Source: a virus
IMG/VR virus record: IMGVR_UViG_3300025168_000847
Location: 1-20,816 of that record
Reading direction: 5' to 3' (one strand)
Length of the DNA stretch: 20,816 nt
Shown: piece after piece, positions 536 to 20,205 of the stretch
Position numbering within the stretch: position 1 is the stretch's first letter
Layout: every line of letters begins with the position of its first letter
The notes under the pieces: model-generated
Database searches by the model: none
What the model was told of the DNA's origin: nothing
Seen by the model: only the letters and a program-made list of their open reading frames with translations
Position numbers and translations under genes: made by a program

Positions 536-1479
536 TGGCAATAGACAAAATACAAAGTAATGCATTAGATCCAGTAAAATTACAACAAACATCTAAATAT
601 ATTAAAGGTGGTTTAACTGTTGTTTCAAATAATACTGATATTGTTCCTCGTGATGAAAATGGAAATATTATAGTACAAGATGGATCATACATGGTTATTG
701 AAACTAATTCATTTAACATAAATAACAATACAATGTTAAAAGTTTTAGATACCCAATTTAATTACTTTAAATTTCCTGCACAAGTTGTTGAAATTGATGA
801 CGATGATATAGACATTAATGTTGATGATTTACAAGTCGAACAAGACACAATTTATGCAAGATATGCACCAATTGAAAATTTACGTTTATCTGATCCAATT
901 GGACCTAATGGATATCAACCGTCAAGACCAGTTGAATTAGAGTTTAATAAAGTAGTTCGCGGTATTGCACAAGAAACATCAAATCGATATACTATTACAG
1001 ATGAAATAAAAAGTTCTGGAGTAGATTTAAGATTCCGAGTTAAAATAGAACATCGATTCGATCGCCCAGACCCCGGAGATGGAGTAGCATATTTCTTTGT
1101 ATCAAGAGAAGGACCTGATCAGAGTTTACAAAAAGATTATCTTGGACCGTTTGCTAATACATCTGACCGGTATCCTGAAAGATATGGCAGTATAGGACAA
1201 TATCAAGTACAAACATTAAATGTAGATCGAGTTATAACAAACGATCAATTTGATATTGGGGATACATTCTTTATTTCGGCTATTGGAGATCCTAATTCAG
1301 AATTTAGATTCCATACTATTAATTCTGTACAAACATATTGGACTATAACTGATGCATCGAAAAATGTTGATGTATGGAATCGAGAAACAACATCTACAAC
1401 GTCGCAAACTGTATTTGAAGGCGCCGCTTTTGCAGAAGAATTAACTGAAACTGCTCAAAATACAATCAGAGATAGATAA
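535..1479 (+). CDS. Hypothetical virion structural protein (314 aa)
   Basis: The start ATG overlaps the previous stop by one base (TAATG), and the stop again overlaps the next start in the same way, so three genes form a coupled set. I do not recognise the family. An acidic Asp-rich stretch (EIDDDDIDINVDD, about residues 84-96) is followed by a beta-rich region with many Asn, Thr and aromatic residues, and by an Ala/Glu/Thr-rich C-terminal tail. There is no signal peptide, membrane helix or catalytic motif. Context and composition suggest a tail, baseplate or fibre-connector component. The coding call is secure because the frame is long, open and tightly joined to its neighbours; the role is inference only. 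Confidence 0.7.
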   Translation: MAIDKIQSNALDPVKLQQTSKYIKGGLTVVSNNTDIVPRDENGNIIVQDGSYMVIETNSFNINNNTMLKVLDTQFNYFKFPAQVVEIDDDDIDINVDDLQVEQDTIYARYAPIENLRLSDPIGPNGYQPSRPVELEFNKVVRGIAQETSNRYTITDEIKSSGVDLRFRVKIEHRFDRPDPGDGVAYFFVSREGPDQSLQKDYLGPFANTSDRYPERYGSIGQYQVQTLNVDRVITNDQFDIGDTFFISAIGDPNSEFRFHTINSVQTYWTITDASKNVDVWNRETTSTTSQTVFEGAAFAEELTETAQNTIRDR

Positions 1480-4400
1480 TGAGTTTAACACAATATAAAA
1501 ATATCGATCAAATATTAGAAGCAAAAAATTCTTTGTCGGCCAATCGAATTGATAAAACTCAATTACAAACTATAAATACTAGTTTTAAAAATCCAATAAC
1601 TTTTAATAACGACATTGTTAATAAATCTACAGTAGAATTTCATATTTATTCTAGAGAAACATGGATAACGGGACAACATAAAAATCAATCGTTAGAACAA
1701 ACTCCAACGTTTTATAACTCAGTTACTAAAAAACAAATAAGTTTTGATTCACAACCATATGTTTTAGATATAAATCAACAAGTAGAAAATTTAAAATTAA
1801 ATGGCGGAACATATCGTATTGTAGTTAACTTTTTTGAAAACTTAATTGGAGGTTATGAACAACAACATTTACGGATAGACGAAATATCACCAGACCGTAC
1901 CGAACTTCGTTTACGTGCGATAGATTCGGAAGATATTAATTTTGTAGAACAAATAACAAATTATATTGAAACAGTAAATCAAACAAGTAATAGAGGAAAT
2001 TTCCAAAGTTATTTGTTAAACTTTAGTAGAAATAACTGTGTGCAATTTGTTAATAGTGTTGTTATTGGAGAATATCTATATGTAAAATTATATGAGCCAC
2101 TTCCTGTTGATATTGAACAAAATTTTAAATGTTGGGTTGTTAAAGAATTAAAACCATCATATATTGACAATATTAATATAGATCCAATAATACAACCTGA
2201 TTCTGTTAATATATTAAGTGGACCAAATTGGCAAGCAAATTATTCATATAATACTTCTACCGAAACAGGATTACAAAATTGGACGGATTTATTAGGTTCA
2301 TCAACATCAACGTCACAACAAATTGTAGATAGATTCTTTTCTGGTAGTTTATCTGGAATGAAATTAAATATAGATTATTCTGATTTTAATAATTTTATAT
2401 TTTATAGTTCAGCTACCGAACGTTTGAATAATTTTAAATATAAATTAAGTTTAATTGAATATTATACATCACAAAGTTTAGTATTAACTGGAATATCTGG
2501 TAGTGATTCTACGACAAATGCACAAGATTTTACAAATTTAAAAACTTCATTAATTGGAGGATTTGACAACTTTGAACAGTATTTATATTATGAATCATCT
2601 TCAAAATTAACAACTAATTTAATTCCTTTAGAAAATGCAAATGTATCAAGTGTAACGGGTAGCTATATTCAACCAATACCAAAAACTAATTCCACTATTC
2701 CATATGCATTATATTCTATAACATCAAGTCAATTCGAAACTTGGTTTAATGGAGCAATTGAATCTTCGTCATTATATGACACGTTAAATGAAAATTCTTT
2801 AATACGAACAGTACCAGAACATATACAATTGAAATCTGATAGTGTAGATTTAACAACGTTTGTTAACATGTTAGGACATCATTATGATATACTATATACG
2901 TATATTAATCATATGACTAAAATTAATAAACGAGAAGAAAATCCTAAATTAGGTATGCCAGATGAATTATTATATTCAGTAGCAAAACAATTTGGATGGA
3001 ATTTAACTAATGGAAAACAAGGACAAAAGCTTTGGGAATATACATTAGGAACATCAGAAACTGGTGTGCCGCTCACCGGATCTAATTCTATAGGAGATCC
3101 ATCTGTTTCTGGAGAAAAATCTACATATACAATATGGCGTAGAATTATAAATAATTTACCATTATTATTAAAGTCTAAAGGAACTAAACGAAGCGTACAA
3201 GCATTATTATCTTGTTATGGAATACCACAATCATTAATGACCATTAATGAATATGGCGGACCAAGATTAGAACGTGCTCCTGTATATGAAAAACTTAATT
3301 TTGATTACGCATTAGATTTAATCAATAATACAGCTGGAACAGTTATTGTTAATTATTCTGAATCAATTAATACTGTAGAATTACGCTTTCGAACCGATGA
3401 TGTTATAAAAACTCCATCTATGCCTAGTACTATGAATTTATTTACAATTGGAAGTAATACTGTTACATTGGATTATACAAGTGGAACGATTGGAACAATT
3501 CAAATTAATGGTACTGGAAGTAATAATATTGAATTATTCGATGGTGGCTATTTAACTACTATGTTACGTACTAATGGTGATAAATTAGAATCTATAACAA
3601 AAAAATCTAAATACGGTAAAATTATAGCAGCTGTGTCTGCTTCTGCAACTGCATCTTTTGATTTTGAAAGCACGTTAACATTAGGTGGTGTTACTGGAGG
3701 TAGTCGATTATTAGGACAACTTCAAGAATTACGTTTATGGAGTTGTAGTTTAGAAGAATCGGCATTTAATAATCATGTAAAAGCTCCAGCTGCGTATGAT
3801 GGAAATATAGATGCATATGATGAATTATCATTTAGGATACCATTAACGCAAAAAATTAATCACGCAATAACAAGTAGTTTAACCGGTGTACAGCCAAGGT
3901 CTTCTGCCGTTTCTGCATCATTTGCCAATTGGACTAATAATACTCCATATGACTCAATTGAAGAAACATATTATTATGATGGTATATCATTAGCTGCAGG
4001 GACATTTGATGACAATAAGATACGTTTAGAAGATAATGAATTGGTTGGATCGTTAGATGTTAAAACTAGAGCAGAGCGTAGTCAATTTGATAAAGCTCCG
4101 TTAGATAGTGCAAAATTAGGTGTATATTTTTCTCCACAAACTATGATTGATGAGGATATTATAGCACAATTAGGATTTAAATCATTAGATGATTATATAG
4201 GAGATCCGGGAGATACTAATAGTAAATCATATCCTGATTTGATTTATGAAGCAAGCAAATATTGGAAAAAATACAGTCAAAGTAATGATATGAATGCATA
4301 TATTAGAATATTTACACTATTCGATTTATCATTCTTTAAACAGTTAGATCAATTATTACCTGCCCGAGTAAATAAATTAACTGGATTATTAGTTCAACCT

Positions 4401-4982
4401 AATGTATTAGAAAGAAGTAAAGATGTTATTTTACCAGAAGTTCAAAGATTTAATGATACATATAATTCGTTAATACCAGAAGTACAACCTACAGCATCAG
4501 CTGATTATTTACAGTATATCGGAGAAGTTCCAGGTAAAGTTTTAACAATAAATGCTGAAGATGACGATCAGTGGCAAGCATATTTAACAGCTTCCCAACA
4601 ACAAAAATATGGAGGAACAACATATTCATATATTAGTTTAATTAGATCTGGAAGTACGTATATTACTTCATCTACCCCATTTTGGAGAAGTGAAGCAATA
4701 CTACCTTCGATTACATCTTCTAATTTATCTACATTTAAACAAGTAACAGAAATACTACCTACTACGTCTGCTAGTTTATCTGCTGCGGAGGTTCAAGATT
4801 ATTTACCAACTGGTATAAATAATCAGAAATATAATGGTACAAAAATGACAAGTAGAGATTTTAATATAGCATCACGTCAAACTATAGATGGTGGAGCTGT
4901 TGTAGAATTCCGTAAAGCTAATGCAAATCAATTAATATATACTAATCAACTAGGAACACAAGGTAGTTTTATATTAACGTAA
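1479..4982 (+). CDS. Large tail/baseplate structural protein with LamG-like domain (1167 aa)
   Basis: This is the largest gene in the window; its start is fixed by a TAATG overlap with the gene before. The N-terminal third carries a segment (GGTYRIVVNFFEN, then ISPDRTELRLRA, roughly residues 109-150) of a type I associate with structural proteins of marine T4-related phages. The middle contains MPDELLYSVAKQFGW (about 495-510). Residues about 610-770 look like a concanavalin/LamG jelly roll, ending in the typical strand GQLQELRLWSCSLEES. The C-terminal part is Ser/Thr-rich with a Tyr- and Gln-rich region. It probably forms part of the baseplate or a side fibre and may bind carbohydrate through the LamG-like domain. 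Domain calls are by eye; the exact virion position is not known. Confidence 0.7.
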   Translation: MSLTQYKNIDQILEAKNSLSANRIDKTQLQTINTSFKNPITFNNDIVNKSTVEFHIYSRETWITGQHKNQSLEQTPTFYNSVTKKQISFDSQPYVLDINQQVENLKLNGGTYRIVVNFFENLIGGYEQQHLRIDEISPDRTELRLRAIDSEDINFVEQITNYIETVNQTSNRGNFQSYLLNFSRNNCVQFVNSVVIGEYLYVKLYEPLPVDIEQNFKCWVVKELKPSYIDNINIDPIIQPDSVNILSGPNWQANYSYNTSTETGLQNWTDLLGSSTSTSQQIVDRFFSGSLSGMKLNIDYSDFNNFIFYSSATERLNNFKYKLSLIEYYTSQSLVLTGISGSDSTTNAQDFTNLKTSLIGGFDNFEQYLYYESSSKLTTNLIPLENANVSSVTGSYIQPIPKTNSTIPYALYSITSSQFETWFNGAIESSSLYDTLNENSLIRTVPEHIQLKSDSVDLTTFVNMLGHHYDILYTYINHMTKINKREENPKLGMPDELLYSVAKQFGWNLTNGKQGQKLWEYTLGTSETGVPLTGSNSIGDPSVSGEKSTYTIWRRIINNLPLLLKSKGTKRSVQALLSCYGIPQSLMTINEYGGPRLERAPVYEKLNFDYALDLINNTAGTVIVNYSESINTVELRFRTDDVIKTPSMPSTMNLFTIGSNTVTLDYTSGTIGTIQINGTGSNNIELFDGGYLTTMLRTNGDKLESITKKSKYGKIIAAVSASATASFDFESTLTLGGVTGGSRLLGQLQELRLWSCSLEESAFNNHVKAPAAYDGNIDAYDELSFRIPLTQKINHAITSSLTGVQPRSSAVSASFANWTNNTPYDSIEETYYYDGISLAAGTFDDNKIRLEDNELVGSLDVKTRAERSQFDKAPLDSAKLGVYFSPQTMIDEDIIAQLGFKSLDDYIGDPGDTNSKSYPDLIYEASKYWKKYSQSNDMNAYIRIFTLFDLSFFKQLDQLLPARVNKLTGLLVQPNVLERSKDVILPEVQRFNDTYNSLIPEVQPTASADYLQYIGEVPGKVLTINAEDDDQWQAYLTASQQQKYGGTTYSYISLIRSGSTYITSSTPFWRSEAILPSITSSNLSTFKQVTEILPTTSASLSAAEVQDYLPTGINNQKYNGTKMTSRDFNIASRQTIDGGAVVEFRKANANQLIYTNQLGTQGSFILT

Positions 4983-4996
4983 AATTCAGTTGAAAT

Positions 4997-5010
4997 ATAT
5001 TTATATAAAA
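4997..5010 (+). promoter_or_regulatory. Intergenic AT motif, possible late promoter (copy 1)
   Basis: ATATTTATATAAAA lies in the 43-base gap before the gene at 5026. It matches copies before 9278 and 17743 exactly and those before 7091, 14836 and 20222 with one or two changes. If the box acts like a -10 element, transcription would begin near 5011, leaving a short leader with AAAGG (5012-5016) as ribosome binding site. TTTATATAAA inside it is a perfect palindrome, and the minus strand reads TATAAATA. Confidence 0.45.
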
Positions 5011-5025
5011 TAAAGGTAAAACAAT

Positions 5026-5691
5026 ATGGGATATTTAAATAATAGTAGTGTAACTGTAGATGCAATACTTACGTTAAAAGGTCGTGAGTTATTAGCAAAA
5101 GGCGGCGATGCTTTTAAAATTACACAATTTGCAGTTGGTGACGACGAAATTGATTATACACTATGGAATCCAGATCATCCATTAGGAACAAGTTATTATG
5201 GTACAATTATAGAAAATATGCCAATTACAGAAGCTATTCCTGATGAAACACAAGCATTAAAGTATAAATTAGTAACGTTGCCTAAACAAACAACAAATAT
5301 ACCAGTAGTATCAGTAGGAAATAATTCTATTATACTTCCTGGTCCAGGTACGAGTGCTATAATTTCACCTAATACAGCTAATTTGCAAGGCGGAAATGCT
5401 AACTTAGGATATACTGCAATATTGTCTGATTCATCAGTTGCTGATTTAGCTGTTACTAGAGCATTACAAACTTCAGTACTTCCTACCGTTCCTAGATTTA
5501 TTGGAGATAATGAAGATGCACAAAGTGTTGCTGCAGCAGGATTTAGTTTTAGAATTGCAGCTAAAACATTATTAGTTGAATCTAAAACTGCTACTATAAC
5601 TATTATAGGAAATGAAACTGGTGGGGCTACTACTATTAATTTAACAGTAAATAAAGCTTCAACCGCAACAATATCAAATTCTGCTTCGTAA
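5026..5691 (+). CDS. Conserved-type phage virion structural protein (221 aa)
   Basis: The start ATG has a reasonable ribosome binding site, AAAGG at 5012-5016, and a repeated AT motif further upstream. The N-terminus (VDAILTLKGRELLAKG followed by FKITQFAVGDDEIDYTLW, about residues 11-47) is a pattern I associate with a small structural protein common in marine T4-related phages, with no proven role that I can name. The rest is hydrophobic and beta-rich (Ala, Thr, Ile, Val), suggesting an all-beta domain in a tail or baseplate assembly. There is no signal peptide or membrane helix. It lies 43 bases after the 1167-aa gene and 11 bases before the next gene. The structural assignment is inference from family resemblance and position. 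Confidence 0.7.
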   Translation: MGYLNNSSVTVDAILTLKGRELLAKGGDAFKITQFAVGDDEIDYTLWNPDHPLGTSYYGTIIENMPITEAIPDETQALKYKLVTLPKQTTNIPVVSVGNNSIILPGPGTSAIISPNTANLQGGNANLGYTAILSDSSVADLAVTRALQTSVLPTVPRFIGDNEDAQSVAAAGFSFRIAAKTLLVESKTATITIIGNETGGATTINLTVNKASTATISNSAS

Positions 5692-5702
5692 AATAGGAAA
5701 AT

Positions 5703-7031
5703 ATGAAAACAATTAAACAATTAAAAAAACAACAACGTTTAAGCGTAGTACCGCGTAGACAAAATCGTGCAGTTGCTTCGAGTAGGACAAATTCTAGAGA
5801 TGATGATCCGGTACAGCAACGTGATAGAGATGGAAATCCTGTTTCTTCTGCAGCTACTACTAATCGACTCAATGATCAAGTACAACAATTAGCTGAGCAG
5901 TTAGCTCAAGAGATTATTGCTGAGCAACAACAAACTCAAATTTTGGCTCGAAATGGTCGTACGTTTACTAAATTTGATACTGTAAATGACGTTATCGACA
6001 ATCAAACAGAAACAGTTACCGCAGGACTATGGAGTAATAATGTAGCTAGCTTAACTACATATTTTTCTTCATCTACACAAACAGATTCACAACGTAAATA
6101 TTATGTTGATGTATTTAATGGAAATCCTGCGACAACAGGAAATGAATGTCAATTTTCTATTGCATATGGACATGCATTAGGAAGTGGTTCTGACTCACAA
6201 GGTCAACTTAACGATTCACCTTCCAAAGCAATTTATTCACAATATAGACAACTTTTATTGAACCCAACTGATACAAGATTTACCACTGCTGGATCTGGGA
6301 GCACAGATCATATATATGTGGTTAATTTTAAACGTAACAGATTAAAAGAACGATTAGATGCTGGAAATTTTGAATTGCCTTTGGCATCGATGTCTGCTTC
6401 TTTAGATAGTAACGCAACAGGTAGTAATGTAGCAGTAACAGGAAGTGGACCTGTATTTACTTTGATTGATGATTCTTCTTTAAATGCTCAAGGTACATTA
6501 GGAGATTCTGGTAGAATATATAATATAGTATCTGGTTCTATTAATAGTGGTGTATTTAGTCCAACTGCTCCCGTTTATTATGGATTAGCATATCCAGATT
6601 ATGGTACATTGATATTAGACGGAAAAATGTTAGATCAACAATTAAATTTCCAAACAAATAGCGGTTCTAGTTCAGAAGGTAATAATCATTTCCGATTGTT
6701 CCATTCTGTTTCAGGATCGGCCGGATTTACGAATCCCGAAACAGCTGATCCATATGGATTCTTAGCACGTAATTCTGAAAAAGTTACTAGTACTCATTAT
6801 TTTGTAAGAATTAAAAATGCTGAATATAATTTTTCAAATAATCCTTCATTTACAACTGGTAGTGACGGTTTAATTCAGCAATCTACATTTATTGGAGATC
6901 CGAAGGTATATATTACAACCGTTGGGTTATATAGTAATCAGCAAGAATTATTAGCTGTAGCTAAATTATCTAAACCATTATTAAAGTCATTCCAGCGCGA
7001 AGCATTAATTAGAGTAAAATTAGATTTTTAA
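5703..7031 (+). CDS. Tail/baseplate-associated structural protein (442 aa)
   Basis: An AGGA at 5695-5698 precedes the ATG. The N-terminal 50 residues are strongly basic and look disordered (Lys, Arg and Gln rich), followed by a Gln/Glu-rich predicted coiled coil (about residues 55-80, LNDQVQQLAEQLAQEII). The remainder is a Ser/Gly/Thr-rich beta region. The last 40 or so residues (VYITTVGLYSNQQELLAVAK) closely resemble the C-terminus of the 538-aa protein encoded next, so the two share an assembly module. A strong hairpin terminator follows the stop. Coiled coil plus beta domains and neighbours suggest a baseplate or fibre-attachment protein; the precise role is unknown. Confidence 0.7.
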   Translation: MKTIKQLKKQQRLSVVPRRQNRAVASSRTNSRDDDPVQQRDRDGNPVSSAATTNRLNDQVQQLAEQLAQEIIAEQQQTQILARNGRTFTKFDTVNDVIDNQTETVTAGLWSNNVASLTTYFSSSTQTDSQRKYYVDVFNGNPATTGNECQFSIAYGHALGSGSDSQGQLNDSPSKAIYSQYRQLLLNPTDTRFTTAGSGSTDHIYVVNFKRNRLKERLDAGNFELPLASMSASLDSNATGSNVAVTGSGPVFTLIDDSSLNAQGTLGDSGRIYNIVSGSINSGVFSPTAPVYYGLAYPDYGTLILDGKMLDQQLNFQTNSGSSSEGNNHFRLFHSVSGSAGFTNPETADPYGFLARNSEKVTSTHYFVRIKNAEYNFSNNPSFTTGSDGLIQQSTFIGDPKVYITTVGLYSNQQELLAVAKLSKPLLKSFQREALIRVKLDF

Positions 7032-7090: not shown

Positions 7091-8707
7091 ATGTCTGAAA
7101 CAAGAATAGACAATGAAGATATATTTGAAGGATTATATCCAGAAGTATTTAAAAAAATAGATTCTGCAGATATTCAAATCAATCCTTTTCAAGCACATAA
7201 AACATTTACTGTTTTGAGTGGTAGTGCTACAAGTAGCATGTTACCTTTACAAGGCATTTATATTGATGAAACAAATTTACCTGCATTAGAAACAGAATTA
7301 ATATTTAATGATGCTGCTAATATTGATGGTAGTTTGCAAAGTGTATCATATTTTTCAATTAATCATTTATTTTATAAAAACAAAAATCAACCTTATAATA
7401 ATTTTGGACAAACTAATCTAAATTTTATAAAAAAGTTTTTATATGAAACTGCTAGTATATTTTCTTTTCCTCAAAATAAAGTTGGCGAAGGAATAAAATT
7501 ATCATCATTTACTTTATCAGTTCCAAATACTGCTTCATTAACATCTGACAGATATGGAAATATTAATGATAGTGCATTTGATACTGCATCAATTATTAAT
7601 CAGTTAAAATTTTATGAAGGATTCAATGAATATTTTGATACTAGTAGAATTGATTATGAAACTAAAGGAACAGGTATAACATATATACCTGGAGTAGTTG
7701 CGTCTAATGGACAACAATTACCAATGGGCTTGTCTGCTCAATTTAATAAATTTGGATATATTCAAACTAACTTGCAAGGAGAGTATAATCGAGACTCAGA
7801 TTATGCGATATCAATGTTTATTAGTGGAGCTGCAGATTCAGCTGAATCTTCCTTCGATCGAATAATAATTACAAAAGCTAGTAGCAGTCTTACGTTACCT
7901 TCAGATTTAGAAAAAGAAAGTCAATATCCATTTAGATTAGAATTAAGTGGTAGCAATCAACTTAAATTTAGTATACAAGGATCTCCAACATACCGATCCA
8001 TGATAACGTCTTCAGCAGAAGTTTCTAGTTCGTGGACTCATGTTGTTTGTCAAAAAACTGGTAGTGTAATGCAGATGTATATAGATGGAACTTTGCACAA
8101 TTCAACTACTAGCACGTTATTAGAAAACACACAACATCCTTTAAGTGCTAGCGCTAGAATAGATAATCCATATGATTTATGTATAGGAGGACTTGTTGAA
8201 GGTCAATCTAGAATTAATTATAATGGACAACTTGATGAAGTTAGAATATATAATAAAGCATTGAATGCTACAGAAGTTGGATATTTATCCGATCGGACGG
8301 AGGGAGGGACTTTTTCACAAACTCCAGTTGTAGGTAATATTTTTGAAAAACAAGGAATAGGAGTCATTTCTACAATTGATTATAGATATCATAGTATGAT
8401 AAATTATCCATTTACTGCTTCATATAAAAGCACGGTTACACTGTATGAATTAGGAGTAGTAGCTCGTTTAAGTCAAGGTGATTTTAATATGTCTACAAAT
8501 GTTACATTGACAAAAGATGATAATCAATCATATCGAGGATTTGTCTCTGGTAGTGATTTTGCACCATATGTAACTAGTATTGGTTTGTATAATGACTCAG
8601 GACAATTATTGGCAATCGCAAAACTTGCACAACCTATACGTAAGCGCAATGATATAGATGTGAATTTCCTAGTAAGAATTGATTTAGATAAAAAGTTGGT
8701 TAAATGA
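7091..8707 (+). CDS. Tail structural protein with LamG/concanavalin-like lectin domain (538 aa)
   Basis: The start has GAGG 10 bases upstream. Residues about 210-400 look like a LamG/concanavalin jelly roll: YAISMFISG, then SSSWTHVVCQKTGSVMQMYI, and the diagnostic strand GQLDEVRIYNKALNATEV near residues 378-395. Such domains in phage tails usually bind sugars or decorate fibres. The last 50 residues (PYVTSIGLYNDSGQLLAIAK) repeat the C-terminal module of the preceding 442-aa protein. There is no signal peptide or catalytic motif. The stop overlaps the next start by four bases (ATGA), so the kinase-like gene behind it is probably translated by coupling. It is likely a baseplate-proximal or fibre protein; the LamG call is fairly secure, the virion location is inferred. 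Confidence 0.75.
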   Translation: MSETRIDNEDIFEGLYPEVFKKIDSADIQINPFQAHKTFTVLSGSATSSMLPLQGIYIDETNLPALETELIFNDAANIDGSLQSVSYFSINHLFYKNKNQPYNNFGQTNLNFIKKFLYETASIFSFPQNKVGEGIKLSSFTLSVPNTASLTSDRYGNINDSAFDTASIINQLKFYEGFNEYFDTSRIDYETKGTGITYIPGVVASNGQQLPMGLSAQFNKFGYIQTNLQGEYNRDSDYAISMFISGAADSAESSFDRIIITKASSSLTLPSDLEKESQYPFRLELSGSNQLKFSIQGSPTYRSMITSSAEVSSSWTHVVCQKTGSVMQMYIDGTLHNSTTSTLLENTQHPLSASARIDNPYDLCIGGLVEGQSRINYNGQLDEVRIYNKALNATEVGYLSDRTEGGTFSQTPVVGNIFEKQGIGVISTIDYRYHSMINYPFTASYKSTVTLYELGVVARLSQGDFNMSTNVTLTKDDNQSYRGFVSGSDFAPYVTSIGLYNDSGQLLAIAKLAQPIRKRNDIDVNFLVRIDLDKKLVK

Positions 8708-9249
8708 TACGATTAAAGAATATATTGTTAGAATTAAAAGATCAAGATGTATCTAGACTATTAGATAAAATTAATAACAATGAATATCGTTTTTTTGATC
8801 AAGGAGACAACGGACGTGTATATGAAATAGACGGAGAAGATAAATTATTTAAAATAACTACAGAGACAGATGAATATAAGGTGGCTACAGTTATTGTAGG
8901 CCGATTTGATGAATTTAGCACTTTTATTCCAGTATATTACGTTGACAATAATCAGCAGTTGTATATAATGGCAAAAGCATCAAAATTATCTGGATCTGAT
9001 TTGAATAATATTAATCAGTTTATGAATTCATATAAACAATATGCTCGAGAACGAGGCGGAGAAGTTTCTATTTTTGATTTTTTAGATGCAGACGGAGCAA
9101 GAAATGCTGATCAAGAATTAGTTTCATTTTTACGGGCATTGCAGACTGATATTGGAAAAATGGGTATCATGGATTTAGATTTAGATTTAGATTTTAAAAC
9201 AGACAATGTTATGCGTTGGCAAAGTAGATTAGTATTAATTGATTGGTAA
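8704..9249 (+). CDS. Minimal protein-kinase-like protein with possible capsid-targeting leader (181 aa)
   Basis: The ATG overlaps the preceding stop (ATGA). After the leader MIRLKNILLE, a kinase-like N-lobe is visible: a glycine-loop pattern GDNGRVY (34-40), then a candidate ATP-anchoring Lys50 in LFKIT. Near the end, D163-x-K-x-x-N168 matches the kinase catalytic loop, and D180 in LVLIDW matches the metal-binding Asp of the DFG position. The protein stops one residue later, so no activation segment or normal C-lobe follows; about 180 aa is far shorter than the usual 250 or more. The first ten residues, ending in Leu-Leu-Glu, resemble T4 capsid-targeting peptides cut by the prohead protease, which would make this a packaged protein. 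The kinase fold is a moderately confident visual call; activity and target are unknown. Confidence 0.65.
   Translation: MIRLKNILLELKDQDVSRLLDKINNNEYRFFDQGDNGRVYEIDGEDKLFKITTETDEYKVATVIVGRFDEFSTFIPVYYVDNNQQLYIMAKASKLSGSDLNNINQFMNSYKQYARERGGEVSIFDFLDADGARNADQELVSFLRALQTDIGKMGIMDLDLDLDFKTDNVMRWQSRLVLIDW
9172..9195 (+). repeat. Hexanucleotide tandem repeat (GATTTA)x3 + GATTTT inside kinase-like gene
   Basis: Four consecutive 6-base units encode DLDLDLDF (residues 157-164), directly before and including the candidate catalytic Asp163. Gain or loss of a unit keeps the frame and changes the number of Asp-Leu pairs in the catalytic loop region. Confidence 0.8.
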
Positions 9250-9277: not shown

Positions 9278-10066
9278 ATGATAAAATTGAAAGACATATT
9301 AAAAGAAGGTAAGGACACTCCAAAAAAACCTGTACAGGGGATTGATTGTTATAAATGGATAACTGGGTTCGTAAATGGAACGTATCAAGTAAAATCAACT
9401 GATCTTACGCCTGCAGAGCAAGGTGTATATACTTTAAAATTTTCTATATCTGATAAAAGTCAATTAAAAGATTTTTGCGATGGTAAATCTGATTTATCAA
9501 TTAATTGTTCAATTGTTGAAAAAACTAAAAGTGATCCAAAAAGTGTTGATCCACTCAGTGTTGTTAATAATATACAATTAGTATTTAGACATTATGATGT
9601 TAAATCATATGATGACGCAGATGCACAAGAAATAGGCAAAGATAAATTATTATGGAAATTTGTTATTGCTTCAGCTAAATATAACGGTGATACTTTTACG
9701 ATAGATGGAAATTTATCTGATAATATATTTGATACTACTGCAAACAATACTTCTAATCTTACTAAAACAATTTGTGAGCTTATACTTGATTATTTAATAT
9801 GGTATGCAATTAAACAAAAAAAGATATTAAAATATACTAAGGGTAATGATGCTGAAAATAACGTGTATTATGACAAACATGCTAGAAATTATCGTGTAAT
9901 AACAAATACATATGGTACGCAAGAAGAGTATCCAGTAATTGCTACTGTCGGCAAACAAGTTACTGATCAAGGAAAAGGAACAAGTTACGGAGTACCAGAA
10001 AAAACTCTAGATCAAAGATCCCGAGAAATGGGCGGCGGTAGTTATTATCATCCCGGTAAAATTTAA
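9278..10066 (+). CDS. Unknown protein with possible capsid-targeting leader (262 aa)
   Basis: I do not recognise the family. The N-terminus MIKLKDILKE is closely similar to the start of the preceding protein (MIRLKNILLE) and ends in Leu-x-Glu followed by Gly, the pattern cut by T4-type prohead proteases. Removal would leave about 252 residues. The mature part mixes helices and strands, has a hydrophobic helix-like segment (TICELILDYLIWYAI, about 165-180) and ends in a Gly/Ser/Tyr-rich tail. Two pairs of features suggest kinship with its neighbour: the leader and the position. The start is fixed by that leader; there is no Shine-Dalgarno site. It is possibly an internal head protein injected with the DNA, by analogy with T4 internal proteins. 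The function is unknown. Confidence 0.65.
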   Translation: MIKLKDILKEGKDTPKKPVQGIDCYKWITGFVNGTYQVKSTDLTPAEQGVYTLKFSISDKSQLKDFCDGKSDLSINCSIVEKTKSDPKSVDPLSVVNNIQLVFRHYDVKSYDDADAQEIGKDKLLWKFVIASAKYNGDTFTIDGNLSDNIFDTTANNTSNLTKTICELILDYLIWYAIKQKKILKYTKGNDAENNVYYDKHARNYRVITNTYGTQEEYPVIATVGKQVTDQGKGTSYGVPEKTLDQRSREMGGGSYYHPGKI

Positions 10067-10081
10067 TAATAAAAGTTATAT

Positions 10082-10564
10082 ATGAAACGAAATCATTGGC
10101 ACACTGCTGGTAGTAAAAAACGTCAAGCAGCTTATAAATACGGTTATAAATCAGGATTAGAATTAACTGTAGCAGAACAAATTAAATCAAACGATTATGA
10201 TGTAAATTATGAAACTGAAATTATTCATTATACTGTTCCAGAATCCAAACATAAATATACACCAGACTTTGTGTTCACAAAAAAGAATGGCGAATTAATG
10301 TATATTGAAACTAAAGGTCGTTGGACAGCTATAGATCGTAAAAAAATGAAACATGTATTGCAGTGTAATCCTACTATGGATATACGAATAGTGTTTCAAA
10401 ATCCAAATCAAAAAATATCAAAAGCCAGCAAAACTACATATGAAGCGTATGCAAACAAGATGGGTATTGCTAATGTAGCAAAAAAAGAAATACCCGTTGA
10501 ATGGATGGCGGAATGTTTGAAGCCAGGCGAAAAAGCACAAGATCCGAAACGTTTTTTTGTATAA
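10082..10564 (+). CDS. T7 endonuclease I-like Holliday-junction resolvase
   Basis: The 160-aa product resembles T7 gp3 endonuclease I (149 aa) along most of its length. That enzyme is a dimeric nuclease that cuts branched DNA and resolves recombination or replication intermediates before packaging. Landmarks are SGLE with Glu27 (T7 Glu20), YTPDF with Asp62 (T7 Asp55), and the ETKG strand with Glu76 and Lys78 (T7 Glu65 and Lys67). Further matches are the DRKK, DIRIVF and IPVEWM segments. By ungapped alignment to the T7 sequence as I remember it, the position of T7 Glu35 is Asn42 here, with Glu44 two residues on. The N-terminus is basic. It stands just upstream of the non-coding gap and the primase and recombination genes, which fits a DNA-processing role. 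Confidence 0.9.
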   Translation: MKRNHWHTAGSKKRQAAYKYGYKSGLELTVAEQIKSNDYDVNYETEIIHYTVPESKHKYTPDFVFTKKNGELMYIETKGRWTAIDRKKMKHVLQCNPTMDIRIVFQNPNQKISKASKTTYEAYANKMGIANVAKKEIPVEWMAECLKPGEKAQDPKRFFV

Positions 10565-10751: not shown

Positions 10752-11696
10752 ATGCAAAATCTTAAATTACTACAGTTACTGGAATCTGTCTTAGGTAAAG
10801 GTAAATCTACATCTGGTAATAACGTTGCATTTTTCTCCCCATTTACTTCACATTATAAACCTAAATTAGAAATAGACATCAACACAACAAGCGAAGGTCA
10901 AAATGCCTGGCACTGTTGGATATCTGATAAAAAAGGTAGAAGTATAAACAGTTTATTTAAACAAATGAACTTGGGTAAACAATACTTTGAACAATTATCT
11001 CGCATAATTAAGTCGGCAAAATATAAAAACTTTGACAATGAAGTTAAACATGTAGAAACAATATCACTGCCCGAAGAATATGTTCCATTATGGAAACACA
11101 AAAAGACTCCTGACTTTCGCAATGCTGTTGCATATCTAAAACGACGAGGTGTTACTATATTTGATATATTAAAATATCGTATAGGATATTGTGAGCGAGG
11201 AGAGTATAGTGGCAAAATTATTATTCCTAGTTATGATTGTAACGGACAATTGAATTATTTTGTAAGTAGAGCATTTTATAATGCTGATAAATATAAACAC
11301 AAGAATCCAAAGGTAAGCAAAGATATTATAGGATTTGATTTGCTCATCAATTGGGAAGAACCAATAGTACTTTGCGAAGGGTCATTTGATGCAATTGCAA
11401 TAAAAAGAAATGCAATACCATTATTTGGTAAAATTATACAACCTCAACTACAGAAAAAGATTATTGAAAAACGAGTCAAAGACATTTACATATGTTTAGA
11501 TGCTGACGCCATTCGCAATGCATTGAGTATTGCAGAACGATTTATGGGTGAAGGATTAAATGTATATTTTATAGAATTAAAAGAGCAAGATGCATCCGAT
11601 TTAGGATTTCATCGTATAACAGAAATTATAGAACAAACCGGAGTAATGACATTTGAACAACTAATGCAACTCCGAATGGGTATTTTATGGAAATAA
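10752..11696 (+). CDS. DNA primase-like TOPRIM protein (T4 gp61-like)
   Basis: The 314-aa product is close to the length of T4 gp61 (about 340 aa), the primase that makes RNA primers for lagging-strand synthesis with the gp41 helicase. The TOPRIM domain shows the glutamate motif IVLCEGSFDAIA (Glu209) and the DxD motif ICLDADA (Asp250, Asp252). The N-terminal domain has the layout of a CHC2 zinc-binding primase domain (FFSPFTSH at 27-34, WHCWISDKKG at 53-62), but most zinc ligands are replaced: Ser and Thr stand where Cys is usual, and Cys55 is followed by Ser58 rather than a second Cys. The gene overlaps the recombination gene by 10 bases in another frame. Helicase and other replisome genes are not in the window. 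A primase-derived TOPRIM protein with another role remains possible. Confidence 0.8.
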   Translation: MQNLKLLQLLESVLGKGKSTSGNNVAFFSPFTSHYKPKLEIDINTTSEGQNAWHCWISDKKGRSINSLFKQMNLGKQYFEQLSRIIKSAKYKNFDNEVKHVETISLPEEYVPLWKHKKTPDFRNAVAYLKRRGVTIFDILKYRIGYCERGEYSGKIIIPSYDCNGQLNYFVSRAFYNADKYKHKNPKVSKDIIGFDLLINWEEPIVLCEGSFDAIAIKRNAIPLFGKIIQPQLQKKIIEKRVKDIYICLDADAIRNALSIAERFMGEGLNVYFIELKEQDASDLGFHRITEIIEQTGVMTFEQLMQLRMGILWK

Positions 11697-14600
11697 AAAA
11701 AGCTGATAAAATTTATCATATATCCGACGTGCATATTCGTACGTTGAAACGTCACAAAGAGTATCGGCATGTATTTGAAAACATGTTTGATTATATTAAT
11801 AAAACTAAAACTGAAAACAGTATAGCAGTAGTTACTGGAGATATTGTTCATAGTAAATTGGACATGTCCCCCGAATTGATTAGAATGCTTACTGATTTCT
11901 TTCGAGGATTCAATATTCCTACAATTGTTATTCTTGGTAATCATGACATGAATCTAAACAATTTATATCGTGAAGATGCATTGTCTCCGGTATTGGATAT
12001 GATTGCTAATGACAACATTGTTTTTATAAAAGACAACGGTACTTTTGATTTTGCTGGAATAACTTGGAATCATATGGCTGTCGACGTTGAGCCTGCTCAA
12101 TACACAAAAGGCAAAGACATTGTAACAGACAACTTAAAGATTGCATTACATCATGGTGCTGTGCATTCTGCAAAAACAGATATAGGATATGAAATATCTA
12201 ATGAGCATGTTACTACTGACTTGTTTTCCGGACACGACATGACACTACTAGGTGACATTCATAAGCCGGCTCAATTCTTAACTGAAACTATTGCATACCC
12301 TGGTTCACTTATACAACAAAATCATGGCGAAGCATTAGATCACGGAATACTTGTTTGGGATGTAGAAACTAAAAAAGCTGAATTTGTAGAAATACACAAT
12401 GATTATGGATATGTAACTATAGAAACAGAAGGCTCTCAAATTGTCAAGTCACCACATCGAATGCCTAACAAGCCCAGAATAAGAATCAAGTTCAATGAAA
12501 CTAGTGCATCAGACATGAAACGATTGGTTACCATGATTCGTAAAAAATACAATGTTCAAGACATTACCATACAACGAACTATATCCGCACAAAACAATGC
12601 TGAGTCTGGAACTATTACAATTGGCAATGTTCGAGACGTTGAATATCAAAACACTTTGTTAACTGAATTTATTAACACTAAATTTCCACAAGCAACTACA
12701 GATGAGTTAGATGCAATACGACATATTAATCGATCTATTAATTCTAAACTACCAGCAGTTGAATCAGTACGTCATATAACATGGCATCCGGTCTCATTTG
12801 AATTTGACAACATGTTTTCATATGGCGCTGGTAACAATGTAGACTTCAATAAAATGAGTGATGTCTGTGGTTTATTTGCTGCAAATACAAGTGGTAAGTC
12901 AAGTTTATTAGATGCTATAACATATACTATATTTGACAAATGCAGTAAAACAAGCAAAGCTCATGAAGTGTTAAACAATAAAAAGTCTAACTTTCGTGGA
13001 GTGTTTAAATTTAAAATGAATGATGTTCTTTATACAATTGAACGAGTTGGCACCAAGAAAAAAGACAACCATGTAAAAGTGGACGTTAACTTTTATACCG
13101 AAACAGAAAATCTAAATGGTGATGAACGAAGTGACACAAATAAAAGTATACGTCGTTATTTAGGAACATACAATGATTTTATTTTAACTGCATTTTCACT
13201 TCAAGCAGATAATAATAATTTTATAGAAAAATCACAACGTGAAAGAAAAGACTTGTTATCTCAATTTTTAGACATTACTGTATTTGAACAACTTTATCAT
13301 TTAGCAACAGACGAAATAAAAGAAACAGCAGGACGACTTAAAGCATTTAAGAAAACTGATTTTGCAGAAACAATAACATCTGCAGATGCCGTTATTAATA
13401 ACAACGAAAAACTAATTGCAGATACGAATAAAAAAGAATCAGACAAACAAACCGACAGAAACACATTACAAGATTCTATAGTACAACTAATTGAAACAAA
13501 ACAACCTACAAGTTATGAAGGTGATGATATTAAAATATTACAGAAAACTGAAACTAATTTAACTGAAAAAATAGAAAAGCTTCAAGAGACAATCGAAGAA
13601 ACAGAACAAACAATTTTAGGATATCAAGATAAAATTGATAATATAGAAGAGACAATTGCAATACAAAATTACAATGTTGATAACTTAAAAGACAAAGATA
13701 AACAATTAACTGATAACGAATTTAAAATTGACGGTTTATGGGAAGAACAAAAAAAACAACAAAGAATAGTAAATGATAAGCAAACGAAAATTGAACATCT
13801 TGAGACGCACAAATATGACCCAAATTGTGAATACTGTGTGTCTAACGTTTTTGTGCAAGACGCAATTCAAGCAAAGAACGAGATTGACCAAGATAGAAAA
13901 ATATTAACAGGTATTGAAGATAATATTGAATTAAATAAAATTTTACAAAATAGTTTAACTGTATATCGAACGCAACTTACTGAATATAATGAATCAAATA
14001 GTAATATTGACACATATAAAAATAAAATTGAAATATATGAACTACAACTTCAGATTCATGAAAATGATCTTCAAACTAAAGAAACAGAATTAGAAAACAA
14101 CATAGAACGACAAGAATCGTTTAAAAGAAATAAATCTGCTATTGTTTGGAATAAAGCTGTTGATAAAAACATTAATGACTGTAAAGGTAAAATTGATACA
14201 ATCTCCGGTCAGATAAAAACACTTCAAGATCAAATAAAAACCAATCATGGAGAAATACAAGTTGCTAAAACCAAGAAAAAGACAGCATTAGAACAATTGG
14301 AAACATACCAACAATTGGAAATAGAATATAAAGCATATGAATATTATTTAAAATCAGTTAAACGAGATGGTATTCCATATGAATTAATATCAAAGGCAAT
14401 TCCTAAAATAGAATCAGAAATAAACAATGTTTTAAATCAAGTAGTAGATTTTAACATGGTTATGAACACCGATGGTAAAAATATTAATGGATATATTATA
14501 TATGATCAAGAAAATTATTGGCCATTAGAATTAACGAGTGGTATGGAAAGATTTATATCTAGTTTAGCAATACGTATAGCACTTATCAATGTTTCTGCTT

Positions 14601-14809
14601 TGCCTCGTCCTAATTTTATAGCAATCGATGAAGGATGGGGCAGTTTAGATGCAGAACATATTTCAGCAGTTAGCAATCTATTTGATTATTTCCGAACTAA
14701 ATTTGACTTTTCAATTATTATATCTCATGTAGACACAATGCGTGATATGGTAGACAATTTAATAGAAGTAAACAAAACTGACGGATACAGCCAGATTCTT
14801 CATGTTTGA
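11687..14809 (+). CDS. Fused Mre11 nuclease-Rad50 ATPase (SbcD-SbcC / gp47-gp46 type)
   Basis: One 1040-aa frame carries both subunits of the recombination nuclease that resects DNA ends. Mre11 part (about 1-340): D14-V-H16, G51-D52, G84-N85-H86-D87, H155-H156 and G189-D-I-H192, the usual metallophosphoesterase metal ligands. Rad50 part (about 365-1040): Walker A-like AANTSGKSS with Lys404, Q-loop FSLQADNN, long Lys/Glu/Gln coiled coils (about 560-890), zinc hook C714-E-Y-C717, signature TSGMERF (951-956), Walker B FIAIDEGWGSLD (Asp981, Glu982) and H-loop ISHVD (His1014). Each motif stands in the right order. T4, T5 and bacteria make these as two proteins. The frame is open across the junction (about 340-365) with no sign of a frameshift. 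The start overlaps the primase stop by 10 bases; no Shine-Dalgarno is visible, so coupling is likely. Confidence 0.92.
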   Translation: MEIKKADKIYHISDVHIRTLKRHKEYRHVFENMFDYINKTKTENSIAVVTGDIVHSKLDMSPELIRMLTDFFRGFNIPTIVILGNHDMNLNNLYREDALSPVLDMIANDNIVFIKDNGTFDFAGITWNHMAVDVEPAQYTKGKDIVTDNLKIALHHGAVHSAKTDIGYEISNEHVTTDLFSGHDMTLLGDIHKPAQFLTETIAYPGSLIQQNHGEALDHGILVWDVETKKAEFVEIHNDYGYVTIETEGSQIVKSPHRMPNKPRIRIKFNETSASDMKRLVTMIRKKYNVQDITIQRTISAQNNAESGTITIGNVRDVEYQNTLLTEFINTKFPQATTDELDAIRHINRSINSKLPAVESVRHITWHPVSFEFDNMFSYGAGNNVDFNKMSDVCGLFAANTSGKSSLLDAITYTIFDKCSKTSKAHEVLNNKKSNFRGVFKFKMNDVLYTIERVGTKKKDNHVKVDVNFYTETENLNGDERSDTNKSIRRYLGTYNDFILTAFSLQADNNNFIEKSQRERKDLLSQFLDITVFEQLYHLATDEIKETAGRLKAFKKTDFAETITSADAVINNNEKLIADTNKKESDKQTDRNTLQDSIVQLIETKQPTSYEGDDIKILQKTETNLTEKIEKLQETIEETEQTILGYQDKIDNIEETIAIQNYNVDNLKDKDKQLTDNEFKIDGLWEEQKKQQRIVNDKQTKIEHLETHKYDPNCEYCVSNVFVQDAIQAKNEIDQDRKILTGIEDNIELNKILQNSLTVYRTQLTEYNESNSNIDTYKNKIEIYELQLQIHENDLQTKETELENNIERQESFKRNKSAIVWNKAVDKNINDCKGKIDTISGQIKTLQDQIKTNHGEIQVAKTKKKTALEQLETYQQLEIEYKAYEYYLKSVKRDGIPYELISKAIPKIESEINNVLNQVVDFNMVMNTDGKNINGYIIYDQENYWPLELTSGMERFISSLAIRIALINVSALPRPNFIAIDEGWGSLDAEHISAVSNLFDYFRTKFDFSIIISHVDTMRDMVDNLIEVNKTDGYSQILHV

Positions 14810-17729: not shown

Positions 17730-17743
17730 ATATTTATATAAAA
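17730..17743 (+). promoter_or_regulatory. Intergenic AT motif, possible late promoter (copy 5), touching the start codon
   Basis: ATATTTATATAAAA is identical to copies 1 and 3. Its last A is the first base of the ATG at 17743. As a -10 box it would place transcription start at or within the start codon. Confidence 0.45.
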
Positions 17744-20205
17744 TGAATAAAACTACAGTACTTTTTCCAGGCGGGTTTAAACCAATCACCGGTGCCCATT
17801 TAGCATTAGCCCAACGCTATGCAAATTCTTCTAATGTAGAACGAGTAATTATGCTCATAGGACCAAAAGAAAGAGACGGTGTAAGTCGTGCTGATAGTGA
17901 TGAAATATTCAGATTAATCAACAACAACTCTAAAATTGAACTCCGTGCTACAGATTTTAACAGTCCTATAATGGCTGCGTATGAGTTCCTCTTTGCATTA
18001 CCAGAAGACGATGCTGGAACATATGCAATGGCAGCTTCTAAAAAAGGAGATGATTACGCCAGAACATTGAGTTTTGCTGGAAATGTAGAAAAATATAAAA
18101 CAGTTGGAGACAAGAAAGGTAGAAAAATTCCTGCAGGCGTAGAAGTGAATCCATTAGAGATTGATGTAGATCCATTAACATATAGCACCGGAGAACCTAT
18201 TTCCGCCAGCACTATACGACAAGCAATCGCTAACAATGACTACGAAACATTTGCAGCATCATATCCAGGAACAAAACCGGCAGTTTTAAAAAATATATGG
18301 CAAATGCTAACCGGAGTACAAGAGTCAATGTTTAGCAAATCTTGGTGGGGCAATCAATTAGCAGAAGATGTCGATGAAGTAGCAGAAGGGTATCAAACTA
18401 CTAAAATGGCTAAGTCTCACGACAAAAAAATAAAAAAATTAAGAAAACATTTAGATCGTAGTCGCGGAGAAGAATTTACATATGATTTTGCTAATTTTGG
18501 TAAAACTGTGTTTGGTGCACCATTATATGAAAATTATATTACGCGTGATGAATTAAAATCTATAGAACCAACCGTAGACAGATTTTTTAAACGGTATGGT
18601 ATAGATGTAGATTTTCAAGGCTATGCAACACATTTTATGGATAGATTAAATGATCCTAGAAATGAAGGAACAATTACATTAGACGATTTAGAAAATTTAT
18701 TTTTAGATTTATCATCAGAATACGGAGAAGAAATAGTTCAACAAGTAATGAAAGGTAATCCATCAGCAGTAACATCAGATTATCAATTTGACGTTCCTAT
18801 TCATATGCCATTTCAATTACACTTCGATCAAAGTTTAGGACAAATCAAATTAATTCCTAGAACAGTTAAGTCGCAACGACGACCATGGAGATCAAATAAT
18901 CCGCAAGATAAAATATATACAATAGAAAACGTATTAACAGAAGGCGGTGCTGCAGGCCATATGAATCATCCGTACGACTCTCACGGATTAACTTTTAATG
19001 ATATGAAAGAAATAGTATCCAGAGCATTAGAAGGACGCCTTGACATGGAAGAAGCTGTTACTGAAAAGACAGACGGACAAAACATTCAAGTTACTTGGAA
19101 GAACGGCCGGCCTGGATTTGCTCGAGGTATTAAAACCAGACTCAATCCACTTACACCTGATGAAATCGTTGCTGAGTTTGAAGCAAAATATCAAAAGTCA
19201 ATAGAAGCTAATGGCGTTAAAGGAGCAGAAGGATATAAACTAGTAGTAGATGCATTTCGTGCTACTGCAGAAGATTTAACTGCATCGTTAAGCAAACTGT
19301 CAAAAGAGACACTTATGCGTATATTTAAAAACGGTAAAGTGTTTGCTAACATGGAAATTATATATCCTGCTACTACCAATGTTATTGCATATGAACAAGC
19401 AGTGCTTCAATTTCACAATCTAGTTGAATATGATGATAAAGGCAAAGTAATTGAAACTGATTTAACTGGTGGCACTATGCTTCAACAAGTAATACAAGAT
19501 GCAAATGCTCATATGCAAAATACATTTTCATTTATTCCTCCTAACAAATTAAAATTGGGTCGTATAGAAGACTTTGAAGATCAACAAGCGGCATTCTTTT
19601 CTGAAATAGACAGTTTAAAAGATCAATTTGGACTTAAAGAAACAGACCAAGTATCTGAATATCACAGAGCATGGTGGAAAGATGTCGTACGAGAACAAGC
19701 ATATCAATTAGATTATGCTATACCAAAAGATGTTTTAGAAATACTAACTAATCGTTGGGCATTCAATGATAAGTCTACCAGAATAAACAATGTAGTCAAA
19801 ATGATAGACAATGAAGCATATTCACAATGGGTGTCCGCATTTGACAAAAAAGACTTCAAGGTATATCAAAAACAAAATATAGAACCTTTTGAATCTATAT
19901 TTTTAAAACTTGGTGCGGTGGTATTGAAAAACATAAAAAACTATTTAGCAGTAAGTCCAGATAAAGCAGTTAGACAAATTAAAAAAGATTTGATGTCACT
20001 GATTAAAGATTTACAAACATCAGACAATCCTGACACACTTAAAAAATTAGAAACACAATTAAAGAAAATAGAACGAATGGGTGGCTTTGATACTATAGTC
20101 CCAATAGAGGGTATAGTATTTACATATGGTGGTAACACATACAAGCTAACTGGGTCGTTTGCTCCGGTAAATCAGATACTAGGAGTGTTAAAATACGCAA
20201 GGTAA
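17743..20205 (+). CDS. Fusion of NMN-adenylyltransferase-like and KxDG ligase-like nucleotidyltransferase domains (820 aa)
   Basis: The N-terminal domain (about 1-185) has the Rossmann-type nucleotidyltransferase marks: FPGGFKPITGAH with T16-G-A-H19 in place of HxGH, and ISASTIR (153-159) matching the ISSTxxR motif of NadM, CoaD and cytidylyltransferases. A middle region (about 200-395) is unrecognised and partly basic and helical. The C-terminal domain shows the covalent nucleotidyltransferase pattern of DNA and RNA ligases: EKTDGQ with candidate nucleotidyl-Lys442, FANMEIIYP (Glu538, motif III), IEGIVF (Glu789, motif IV) and YKLTG (Lys801, near motif V). VLTE400-GG between the halves looks like a prohead-protease site. 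The start fits the first beta strand; no Shine-Dalgarno is seen. NAD metabolism plus RNA or DNA repair is a possibility; the substrate is unknown. Both domain calls are by motif only. Confidence 0.75.
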   Translation: MNKTTVLFPGGFKPITGAHLALAQRYANSSNVERVIMLIGPKERDGVSRADSDEIFRLINNNSKIELRATDFNSPIMAAYEFLFALPEDDAGTYAMAASKKGDDYARTLSFAGNVEKYKTVGDKKGRKIPAGVEVNPLEIDVDPLTYSTGEPISASTIRQAIANNDYETFAASYPGTKPAVLKNIWQMLTGVQESMFSKSWWGNQLAEDVDEVAEGYQTTKMAKSHDKKIKKLRKHLDRSRGEEFTYDFANFGKTVFGAPLYENYITRDELKSIEPTVDRFFKRYGIDVDFQGYATHFMDRLNDPRNEGTITLDDLENLFLDLSSEYGEEIVQQVMKGNPSAVTSDYQFDVPIHMPFQLHFDQSLGQIKLIPRTVKSQRRPWRSNNPQDKIYTIENVLTEGGAAGHMNHPYDSHGLTFNDMKEIVSRALEGRLDMEEAVTEKTDGQNIQVTWKNGRPGFARGIKTRLNPLTPDEIVAEFEAKYQKSIEANGVKGAEGYKLVVDAFRATAEDLTASLSKLSKETLMRIFKNGKVFANMEIIYPATTNVIAYEQAVLQFHNLVEYDDKGKVIETDLTGGTMLQQVIQDANAHMQNTFSFIPPNKLKLGRIEDFEDQQAAFFSEIDSLKDQFGLKETDQVSEYHRAWWKDVVREQAYQLDYAIPKDVLEILTNRWAFNDKSTRINNVVKMIDNEAYSQWVSAFDKKDFKVYQKQNIEPFESIFLKLGAVVLKNIKNYLAVSPDKAVRQIKKDLMSLIKDLQTSDNPDTLKKLETQLKKIERMGGFDTIVPIEGIVFTYGGNTYKLTGSFAPVNQILGVLKYAR

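Follow-up and report, generated by a model that had tools for sequence, protein, structure and literature searches.

Phage counter-defences under discussion include RNA repair directed against anticodon nucleases and the maintenance of NAD (PMC7824862, PMC9503650). The ATP-dependent RNA ligases (T4 Rnl1 and Rnl2, archaeal Rnl3, fungal Trl1) have a common fold, the motif I sequence EKxDGxN followed by a conserved Arg, the Glu of motif III, the EG of motif IV, and the first Lys of motif V. Phage NAD-salvage enzymes of the NadM/NadR kind, such as the NMNAT-Nudix protein NatV of KVP40, are built around a HIGH-superfamily adenylyltransferase, and every phage with NadM is reported to possess NadV as well (PMC9503650). 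T4 internal proteins and Alt have a capsid-targeting sequence and are cleaved by gp21, and prohead proteases of the T4 type cleave after Glu (PMC5694885). Iyer et al. 2017 (PMC5512222) describe polyvalent proteins as multi-enzyme polypeptides encoded among late genes, with modular gain and loss and predicted injection with the DNA, and the authors attribute their processing to zincin metallopeptidases; text searches of that source found neither a ligase domain nor a HIGH adenylyltransferase as a component. In cyanophages DUF6267, listed as being of unknown function, adjoins a cytidylyltransferase that has been detected in virions. The locus described here has features in common with all of these systems.

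The window is the whole stretch of viral DNA that was analysed, 20,816 nucleotides long, and it contains one open and complete reading frame in which an adenylyltransferase (NTase) and an RNA-ligase-like domain are joined. The features of this precursor are given below, with a slash marking each predicted cut.

17743..20205, + strand: precursor ORF, 820 residues, consisting of NTase, linker, middle module, and RNA-ligase-like domain
17743..18345, + strand: HIGH-superfamily adenylyltransferase (NMNAT/CoaD-like), residues 1-201, recognized by the motifs GGFKPxxxAH and ISxxxxR and by profile matches
18358..18366, + strand: possible cleavage site LAE208/D at the end of the NTase, the weakest of the three, its P3 Leu being conserved in alignment A1 and most members having Glu at P1
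18523..18531, + strand: predicted prohead-protease site LYE263/NYITR before the middle module, with Leu or Ile at P3 in 27 of 27 distinct relatives and a highly variable P2
18532..18930, + strand: optional middle module, residues 264-396 (about 264-397), with a conserved His-Arg-Asn-Arg helix and a C-terminal Thr; absent in the relative L022
18934..18942, + strand: predicted prohead-protease site LTE400/GG before the ligase-like domain, [LI]xE/GG being found in 59 of 61 non-redundant relatives of the Glu type
18943..20202, + strand: RNA-ligase-like covalent nucleotidyltransferase domain, residues 401-820, with K442xDG, R461, E538, E789G, and K801, recognized by AlphaFold2 and Foldseek

The motifs named in the initial annotation (T16-G-A-H19, I153-S-A-S-T-I-R159, K442-T-D-G445, E538, E789-G790, and K801) are all present where it placed them, and the NTase and the KxDG domain do lie in one chain. 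In an alignment of 13 members, H19, S154, R159, K442, D444, G445, E538, E789, G790, and K801 are invariant. A scan of viral contigs with six short peptides recovered 83 relatives of the protein, and scans with the C-terminal domain alone gave at least 591 and at least 587 confirmed stretches. Relatives are encoded by at least 590 IMG/VR stretches, and a chance origin of the motifs is therefore excluded. Despite its size the family is unannotated, with no match in NCBIfam for the 820-residue protein. Single-sequence searches of Pfam, PHROGs, and the PDB with the complete protein gave no ligase signal, and none of the Pfam matches was significant.

The relatives' contigs are affiliated with the T4 supergroup. 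A gp23-type capsid protein is found in nine of ten and an S77 prohead protease also in nine of ten, and the large terminase gene is located shortly downstream of the gene in relatives. The 20.8-kb fragment that forms the window lacks the S77 protease gene, which is present in the relatives' contigs. Where bacterial genomes gave matches, these probably come from phage contigs, or from prophages, within MAGs. In one relative the NTase part is spread over two overlapping frames (L112:4336-4626 and 4539-6218), due to a frameshift or an assembly error. Elsewhere in the window, positions 11687-14809 encode a Mre11-Rad50 fusion of 1040 residues with a gp47-like part (Metallophos, E 5e-11) and a gp46-like part (SMC_N, weak), which are two genes in S-PM2. 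Also encoded in the window are a T7-type phage endonuclease I (10082-10564, E 5e-34) and, at 7091-8707, a Laminin_G_3 lectin-domain protein (E 1.4e-15).

The predicted structure of the C-terminal domain points to a relationship with ATP-dependent RNA ligases. The AlphaFold2 model has a mean pLDDT of 92 and a pTM of 0.89, and its best match in a Foldseek search of the PDB is T4 RNA ligase 1 with ATP (E 1.1e-3, probability 0.93). The top 27 or so matches consist of ATP-dependent RNA or tRNA ligases and an archaeal/Aquifex relative, with T4 Rnl1, Rnl2, Rnl3, and Trl1 among them, and RNA or tRNA ligases make up almost the whole of the first 30. The covalent nucleotidyltransferase that had been annotated at the C terminus thus has a predicted ligase-type fold, and comparison of the modelled residues 401-820 with ligases places this fold among the RNA ligases. 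The Foldseek E-values are only about 1e-3 and the global TM-scores are low, probably due to a helical insert, some 150 residues long, that separates motif IIIa from motif IV. The C-terminal RNA-binding domain is absent.

Sequence conservation in the domain is strong, and part of it is peculiar to the family. In an alignment of 81 diverse ligase-like domains, in which adding 393 gives the ORF residue numbers, the invariant residues are E441, K442, D444, G445, R461, E538, E789, G790, and K801. T803 and G804 are invariant too, so that motif V reads KxTG throughout the 81 members, and the two-lysine motif V (KxK) of ATP-dependent RNA ligases is not found. The full motif V stretch, KxTGxFxPxNQ, and the start of the domain, GGxxGHxxH, are also invariant. 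The family therefore resembles the ATP-dependent RNA ligases in predicted fold and in all of the motif residues given above for them, but it differs in the helical insert, in motif V, in its invariant N terminus, in scoring under the Pfam gathering threshold, and in having a HIGH NTase as a near-obligate companion. PF09414 (RNA_ligase) matches 17 of the 81 members (best E 5.8e-4), while every other Pfam family matches two at most; the best PF09414 score shown is 20.5 bits, below the curated cut-off of 27 bits. The commonest PHROGs match by far is phrog_562 (T4 Rnl1), with 12 of the 81. A search of the PDB with the ligase-like profile (HMM to sequence) gave chance matches only, and consequently the ligase assignment depends on the fold and on weak matches of individual members. 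With hhalign, motif I (EKxxGxN) alone was aligned to T4 Rnl2, without significance. T4 DNA ligase gp30 was considered as a relative and gave no hhalign match. Taken from sequence comparison and modelling, this appears to be a previously undescribed RNA-ligase-like family that is common in marine T4-type phages.

NAD-dependent ligases (LigA) have an NMN-binding Ia domain before the catalytic lysine, for which more than about 40 residues are needed. The folded domain here begins at residue 401, about 40 residues ahead of K442, and no LigA is found among the 50 PDB fold matches listed. Use of NAD by the ligase, as proposed in the initial annotation, is not supported, since the matches are ATP-dependent RNA ligases and the residues before K442 are too few for a Ia domain.

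The N-terminal domain belongs to the HIGH superfamily of adenylyltransferases. It contains both GxFxPxxxxH and S/TxxxxR, with H19, S154, and R159 conserved. A profile made from 26 members (A6) finds CoaD (phosphopantetheine adenylyltransferase; 3nd5, E 2.6e-7) as the best PDB match, with NadD (5llt, E 5.9e-6) and NMNAT (9x6f, E 3.7e-5) also among the relatives, which agrees with the earlier assignment to a NadM/CoaD type. The NTase matches phrog_395 (cytidyltransferase) with an E-value of 0.0045. A sister type with the sequence GRFQP, from related precursors, is closest to the archaeal NMNAT MJ0541 (E 1.3e-5) and matches NCBIfam NMNAT models, with all scores below the model cut-offs; several members pass the Pfam cut-off for CTP_transf_like. 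The substrate cannot be read from the sequence, as the type found in this ORF seems closest to CoaD and the GRFQP type to NMNAT. In contrast to the phage NadM/NadR salvage enzymes, there is neither a Nudix nor a kinase fusion, and NadV is absent from all ten of the relatives' contigs examined, so that NMN would need another source.

The pairing of the two enzymes is conserved far beyond this phage, and a functional link between them is therefore likely. According to an HMM search of 172 ORFs whose 5' end is intact, the NTase precedes the ligase-like domain in 139, follows it in 25, and is not detected in eight. Two of these eight do carry an NTase (L167 and L179), and two others have one in the adjoining gene (L180 and L081, the NTase and ligase-like domain being separate genes in the latter). 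After reduction to 80% non-redundancy, an NTase is present in 53 of 57 decidable ORFs (30 before, 23 after), compared with 0 of 119 other long ORFs. The pairing occurs with two NTase subtypes. Stand-alone ligase-like proteins are found in L142, L183, and L219. Overall the pairing suggests a tighter link than would be expected of two independent counter-defences.

A similar pair of enzymes is found in cyanophages. In a Foldseek search of BFVD, the ligase-like domain matches S-PM2d138 (591 residues; E 3.5e-4, probability 1.00). This protein (L415:40486-42261) is a fusion in which DUF6267 (PF19782, E 1.6e-111) is joined with a CTP_transf_like domain, and a search with the fused protein gave 201 records with a query coverage of 80% or more. 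In the cyanophages listed, DUF6267 (T4-GC71) and the cytidylyltransferase T4-GC190 are mostly encoded by adjacent genes. DUF6267 has invariant KxDG, EG, and late Lys residues, which are motifs of covalent nucleotidyltransferases. These motifs, the fold, the partner NTase, and the occurrence in T4-like phages are common to the DUF6267 pair and the present family, whereas the former is usually two adjacent genes and the sequence profiles have no significant match (hhalign probability 1%). PF19782 is also not among the families listed for the ligase-like domain. Common descent of the two families is suggested by the modelled fold only.

The residues around the start of the ligase-like domain suggest how it may be released. 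Of 79 non-redundant members, 61 have a Glu immediately before the invariant Gly-Gly; P3 is Leu or Ile in 59 of these 61, and the P2 entropy is 2.7 bits. In ten of the 79 the preceding residue is the start Met of the gene itself, and no cleavage is needed in these relatives because the gene starts with M-GG. Five have an internal in-frame Met at this position (14 loci in all), and one has a Val codon with a sequence like a ribosome-binding site upstream. Only two of the 79, L167 (Ser) and L102 (Cys), have neither Glu nor a start codon. An AGGAG-type site with proper spacing precedes 12 of the 14 internal ATGs, compared with 9.7% of control internal Met codons, indicating that a second, shorter product may be made from the same gene. 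Lys-Glu near the internal starts is mostly encoded as AAGGAG. Loci with AGGAG and an internal in-frame ATG just before the ligase-like domain are L187, L190, L194, L210, L212, L216, L217, L226, L227, L229, L230, and L139.

Cleavage by a protease, the start of the gene itself, and an internal restart thus all seem to lead to one Gly-Gly N terminus, and the AlphaFold2 model is disordered up to this point. Because either [LI]xE/GG or a start codon precedes it, the ligase-like domain probably matures as a separate protein. Cleavage sites of the same kind are found in T4 gp23 (FLTE/A) and in the relatives' own major capsid proteins (LISE/A, LLRE/A, LLKE/A). The linkers of the ORF have [LI]xE at LAE208, LYE263, and LTE400, and the last of these is at a domain border; the S77 protease that would cut there is found in the relatives' contigs. 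Counted over the whole region upstream of the ligase domain, [LI]xE is only modestly enriched (81 versus 47 for the reversed motif), and the case for cleavage therefore depends on the two aligned sites. Action of the two domains as one chain, which the initial annotation had suggested, is doubtful given the predicted LTE/GG site between them and the internal starts in relatives.

The linkers of the precursor also gain and lose modules. L022 has no middle module although it is 94-97% identical on either side, and in phage Melnitz this module is a separate, stand-alone protein. Its AlphaFold2 model is poor (pLDDT 63); from the conserved residues, a BECR-type RNase is a possible guess. The modules gained or lost among relatives are HNH-like, protein-kinase-like, HAD-like, P-loop kinase/zeta-like, and zinc-protease-like. 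Among the sister precursors, L247 has a CCA-adding/poly(A) polymerase head (E 1.5e-29), L145 a P-loop kinase/zeta module, L111 a HAD-like domain, and L138 a weak match to Pol-beta-like NTases. The L247 precursor (513-6239, on a Flavobacteriales MAG contig) is 1909 residues long and has a ParB-like region and a GRFQP NTase between its head and the ligase-like domain. The linkers are an insertion hot spot, with HAD-like inserts in L025 and L111, HNH-like inserts in L053 and L102, a kinase-like insert in L063, a P-loop/zeta insert in L145, and an insert that is SGNH-like by eye in L120. The HAD insert was considered as a relative of the T4 Pnkp phosphatase, and its sole PDB match is a phosphoserine phosphatase (E 0.46), so that such a relationship is not proposed.

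Evidence from other phages is consistent with packaging of the NTase in virions. In S-SM1, mass spectrometry of virions detected T4-GC190, a core cytidylyltransferase of cyanophages (PMC3037559), and virions of S-SCSM1, S-CBWM1, S-SZBM1, and S-CREM2 likewise gave NMNAT-like proteins or cytidylyltransferases (PMC9602691, PMC10665884); these are homologous cyanophage NTases rather than proteins of this clade, and co-purification is a possibility to which the authors draw attention (PMC10665884). The S-SCSM1 protein starts with MKSFLQFLKE/A, which resembles a capsid-targeting leader. Like the polyvalent proteins, the precursor has several disparate enzymatic domains in one polypeptide in a late-gene setting, but its processing is predicted to involve prohead-protease LxE sites and internal restarts. 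The LxE motif and packaging with a gp23-type capsid and S77 protease are shared with T4 internal proteins and Alt, while here several enzymes are strung together in one precursor. In the window, the proteins encoded at 8704-9249 and 9278-10066 start with MIRLKNILLE and MIKLKDILKE, which are like capsid-targeting leaders with LxE, and they are candidate packaged proteins. The first of these is kinase-like by eye and has no Pfam match.

The best explanation, to which we give about an even chance, is that the ORF encodes a precursor of RNA-repair and NAD-maintenance enzymes that are packaged in the virion of a marine phage of the T4 supergroup and injected. A gp21-like (S77) prohead protease would cut after LTE400 during head maturation, probably also after LYE263, and perhaps after LAE208, freeing a ligase-like enzyme with an N-terminal Gly-Gly. 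The capsid would retain all of the pieces, which would then pass into the host along with the DNA. Using ATP, the ligase-like enzyme would adenylylate K442 to lysyl-AMP and rejoin RNA ends, probably those of tRNA, left by host anticodon nucleases. From NMN and ATP the NTase would produce NAD or another dinucleotide, either to offset a loss of NAD or to assist the repair. The CCA-adding module of L247 points to RNA repair as well, and the P-loop kinase of L145, the HAD-like domain of L111, and the weak Pol-beta-like match of L138 belong to the same context. The points against this explanation are the KxTG motif without a second Lys, Foldseek E-values of about 1e-3, the near-obligate pairing, the genes that start with M-GG, and the absence of Glu or a start codon in L102 and L167.

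The pairing could instead reflect one pathway, in which the NTase would join AMP to a phosphorylated small molecule, pX, to give A5'pp5'X, for example NAD or dephospho-CoA. This AppX would serve the ligase-like enzyme as AMP donor, or its pX would be transferred by that enzyme to a nucleic-acid end, recycling of NAD and NMN being one version. Such a pathway would account for near-obligate pairing in both orders (53/57 against a background of 0/119) and with two NTase subtypes, and for a second KxDG family, DUF6267, that is fused to its partner in S-PM2 and adjacent to it in many cyanophages. The match of the GRFQP-type NTase to NMNAT also favors it. T4 RNA ligase 1 can use AppX, which counts as further support. 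We consider it rather unlikely. Against it, the predicted cleavage or restart parts the enzymes (even though they could still cooperate), the 50 PDB fold matches listed include no NAD-dependent ligase, there is no room for a LigA Ia domain, and the NTase, of unreadable substrate, is closest to CoaD in this ORF. A single-chain, self-recharging end-joining enzyme, in which NAD adenylylates K442 and the fused NTase turns the released NMN back into NAD, was the proposal of the initial annotation. In its favor, the two domains are genuine and share an ORF, and the fusion is kept even where their order is reversed. The fold matches to ATP-dependent RNA ligases, the LTE/GG site or restart between the domains, the stand-alone proteins of L142, L183, and L219, and the separate genes in L081 and in most of the cyanophage DUF6267 pairs listed all argue against it. 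This is the least likely version, and we regard it as very improbable.

It is also conceivable that the KxDG domain does not ligate nucleic acids but transfers adenylyl or other nucleotidyl groups to host proteins or to small molecules, and that it is delivered like T4 Alt. The invariant KxTGxFxPxNQ in place of KxK, the missing C-terminal RNA-binding domain, and the 150-residue helical insert would fit this, and polyvalent virion proteins often modify host proteins (PMC5512222). The relatives that can be recognized, whether from the fold or from weak profile matches, are nevertheless RNA ligases, and the partner modules include an RNA-end enzyme, so that a host-modifying function seems a poor prospect. 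A broader proposal is that both KxDG families, the present one and DUF6267, each form, together with a HIGH adenylyltransferase, a two-step pathway that is delivered by the virion. The NTase would make A5'pp5'X, for example NAD, and the ligase-like enzyme would use this compound at infection to adenylylate the ends of RNA or DNA or to decorate them, being freed in the present family with its obligatory Gly-Gly by way of a protease site, gene start, or internal start. We offer this tentatively and think it unlikely.

The reading as injected RNA-repair and NAD-maintenance enzymes suggests that such enzymes are delivered ready-made at infection, ahead of phage gene expression, and that the prohead protease may serve as a polyprotein-processing enzyme. 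It ties an RNA-ligase-like family almost without exception to the NMNAT-like class that has been reported in cyanophage particles. It would also provide a first functional lead for the cyanophage pair T4-GC71/T4-GC190 (DUF6267 and cytidylyltransferase).
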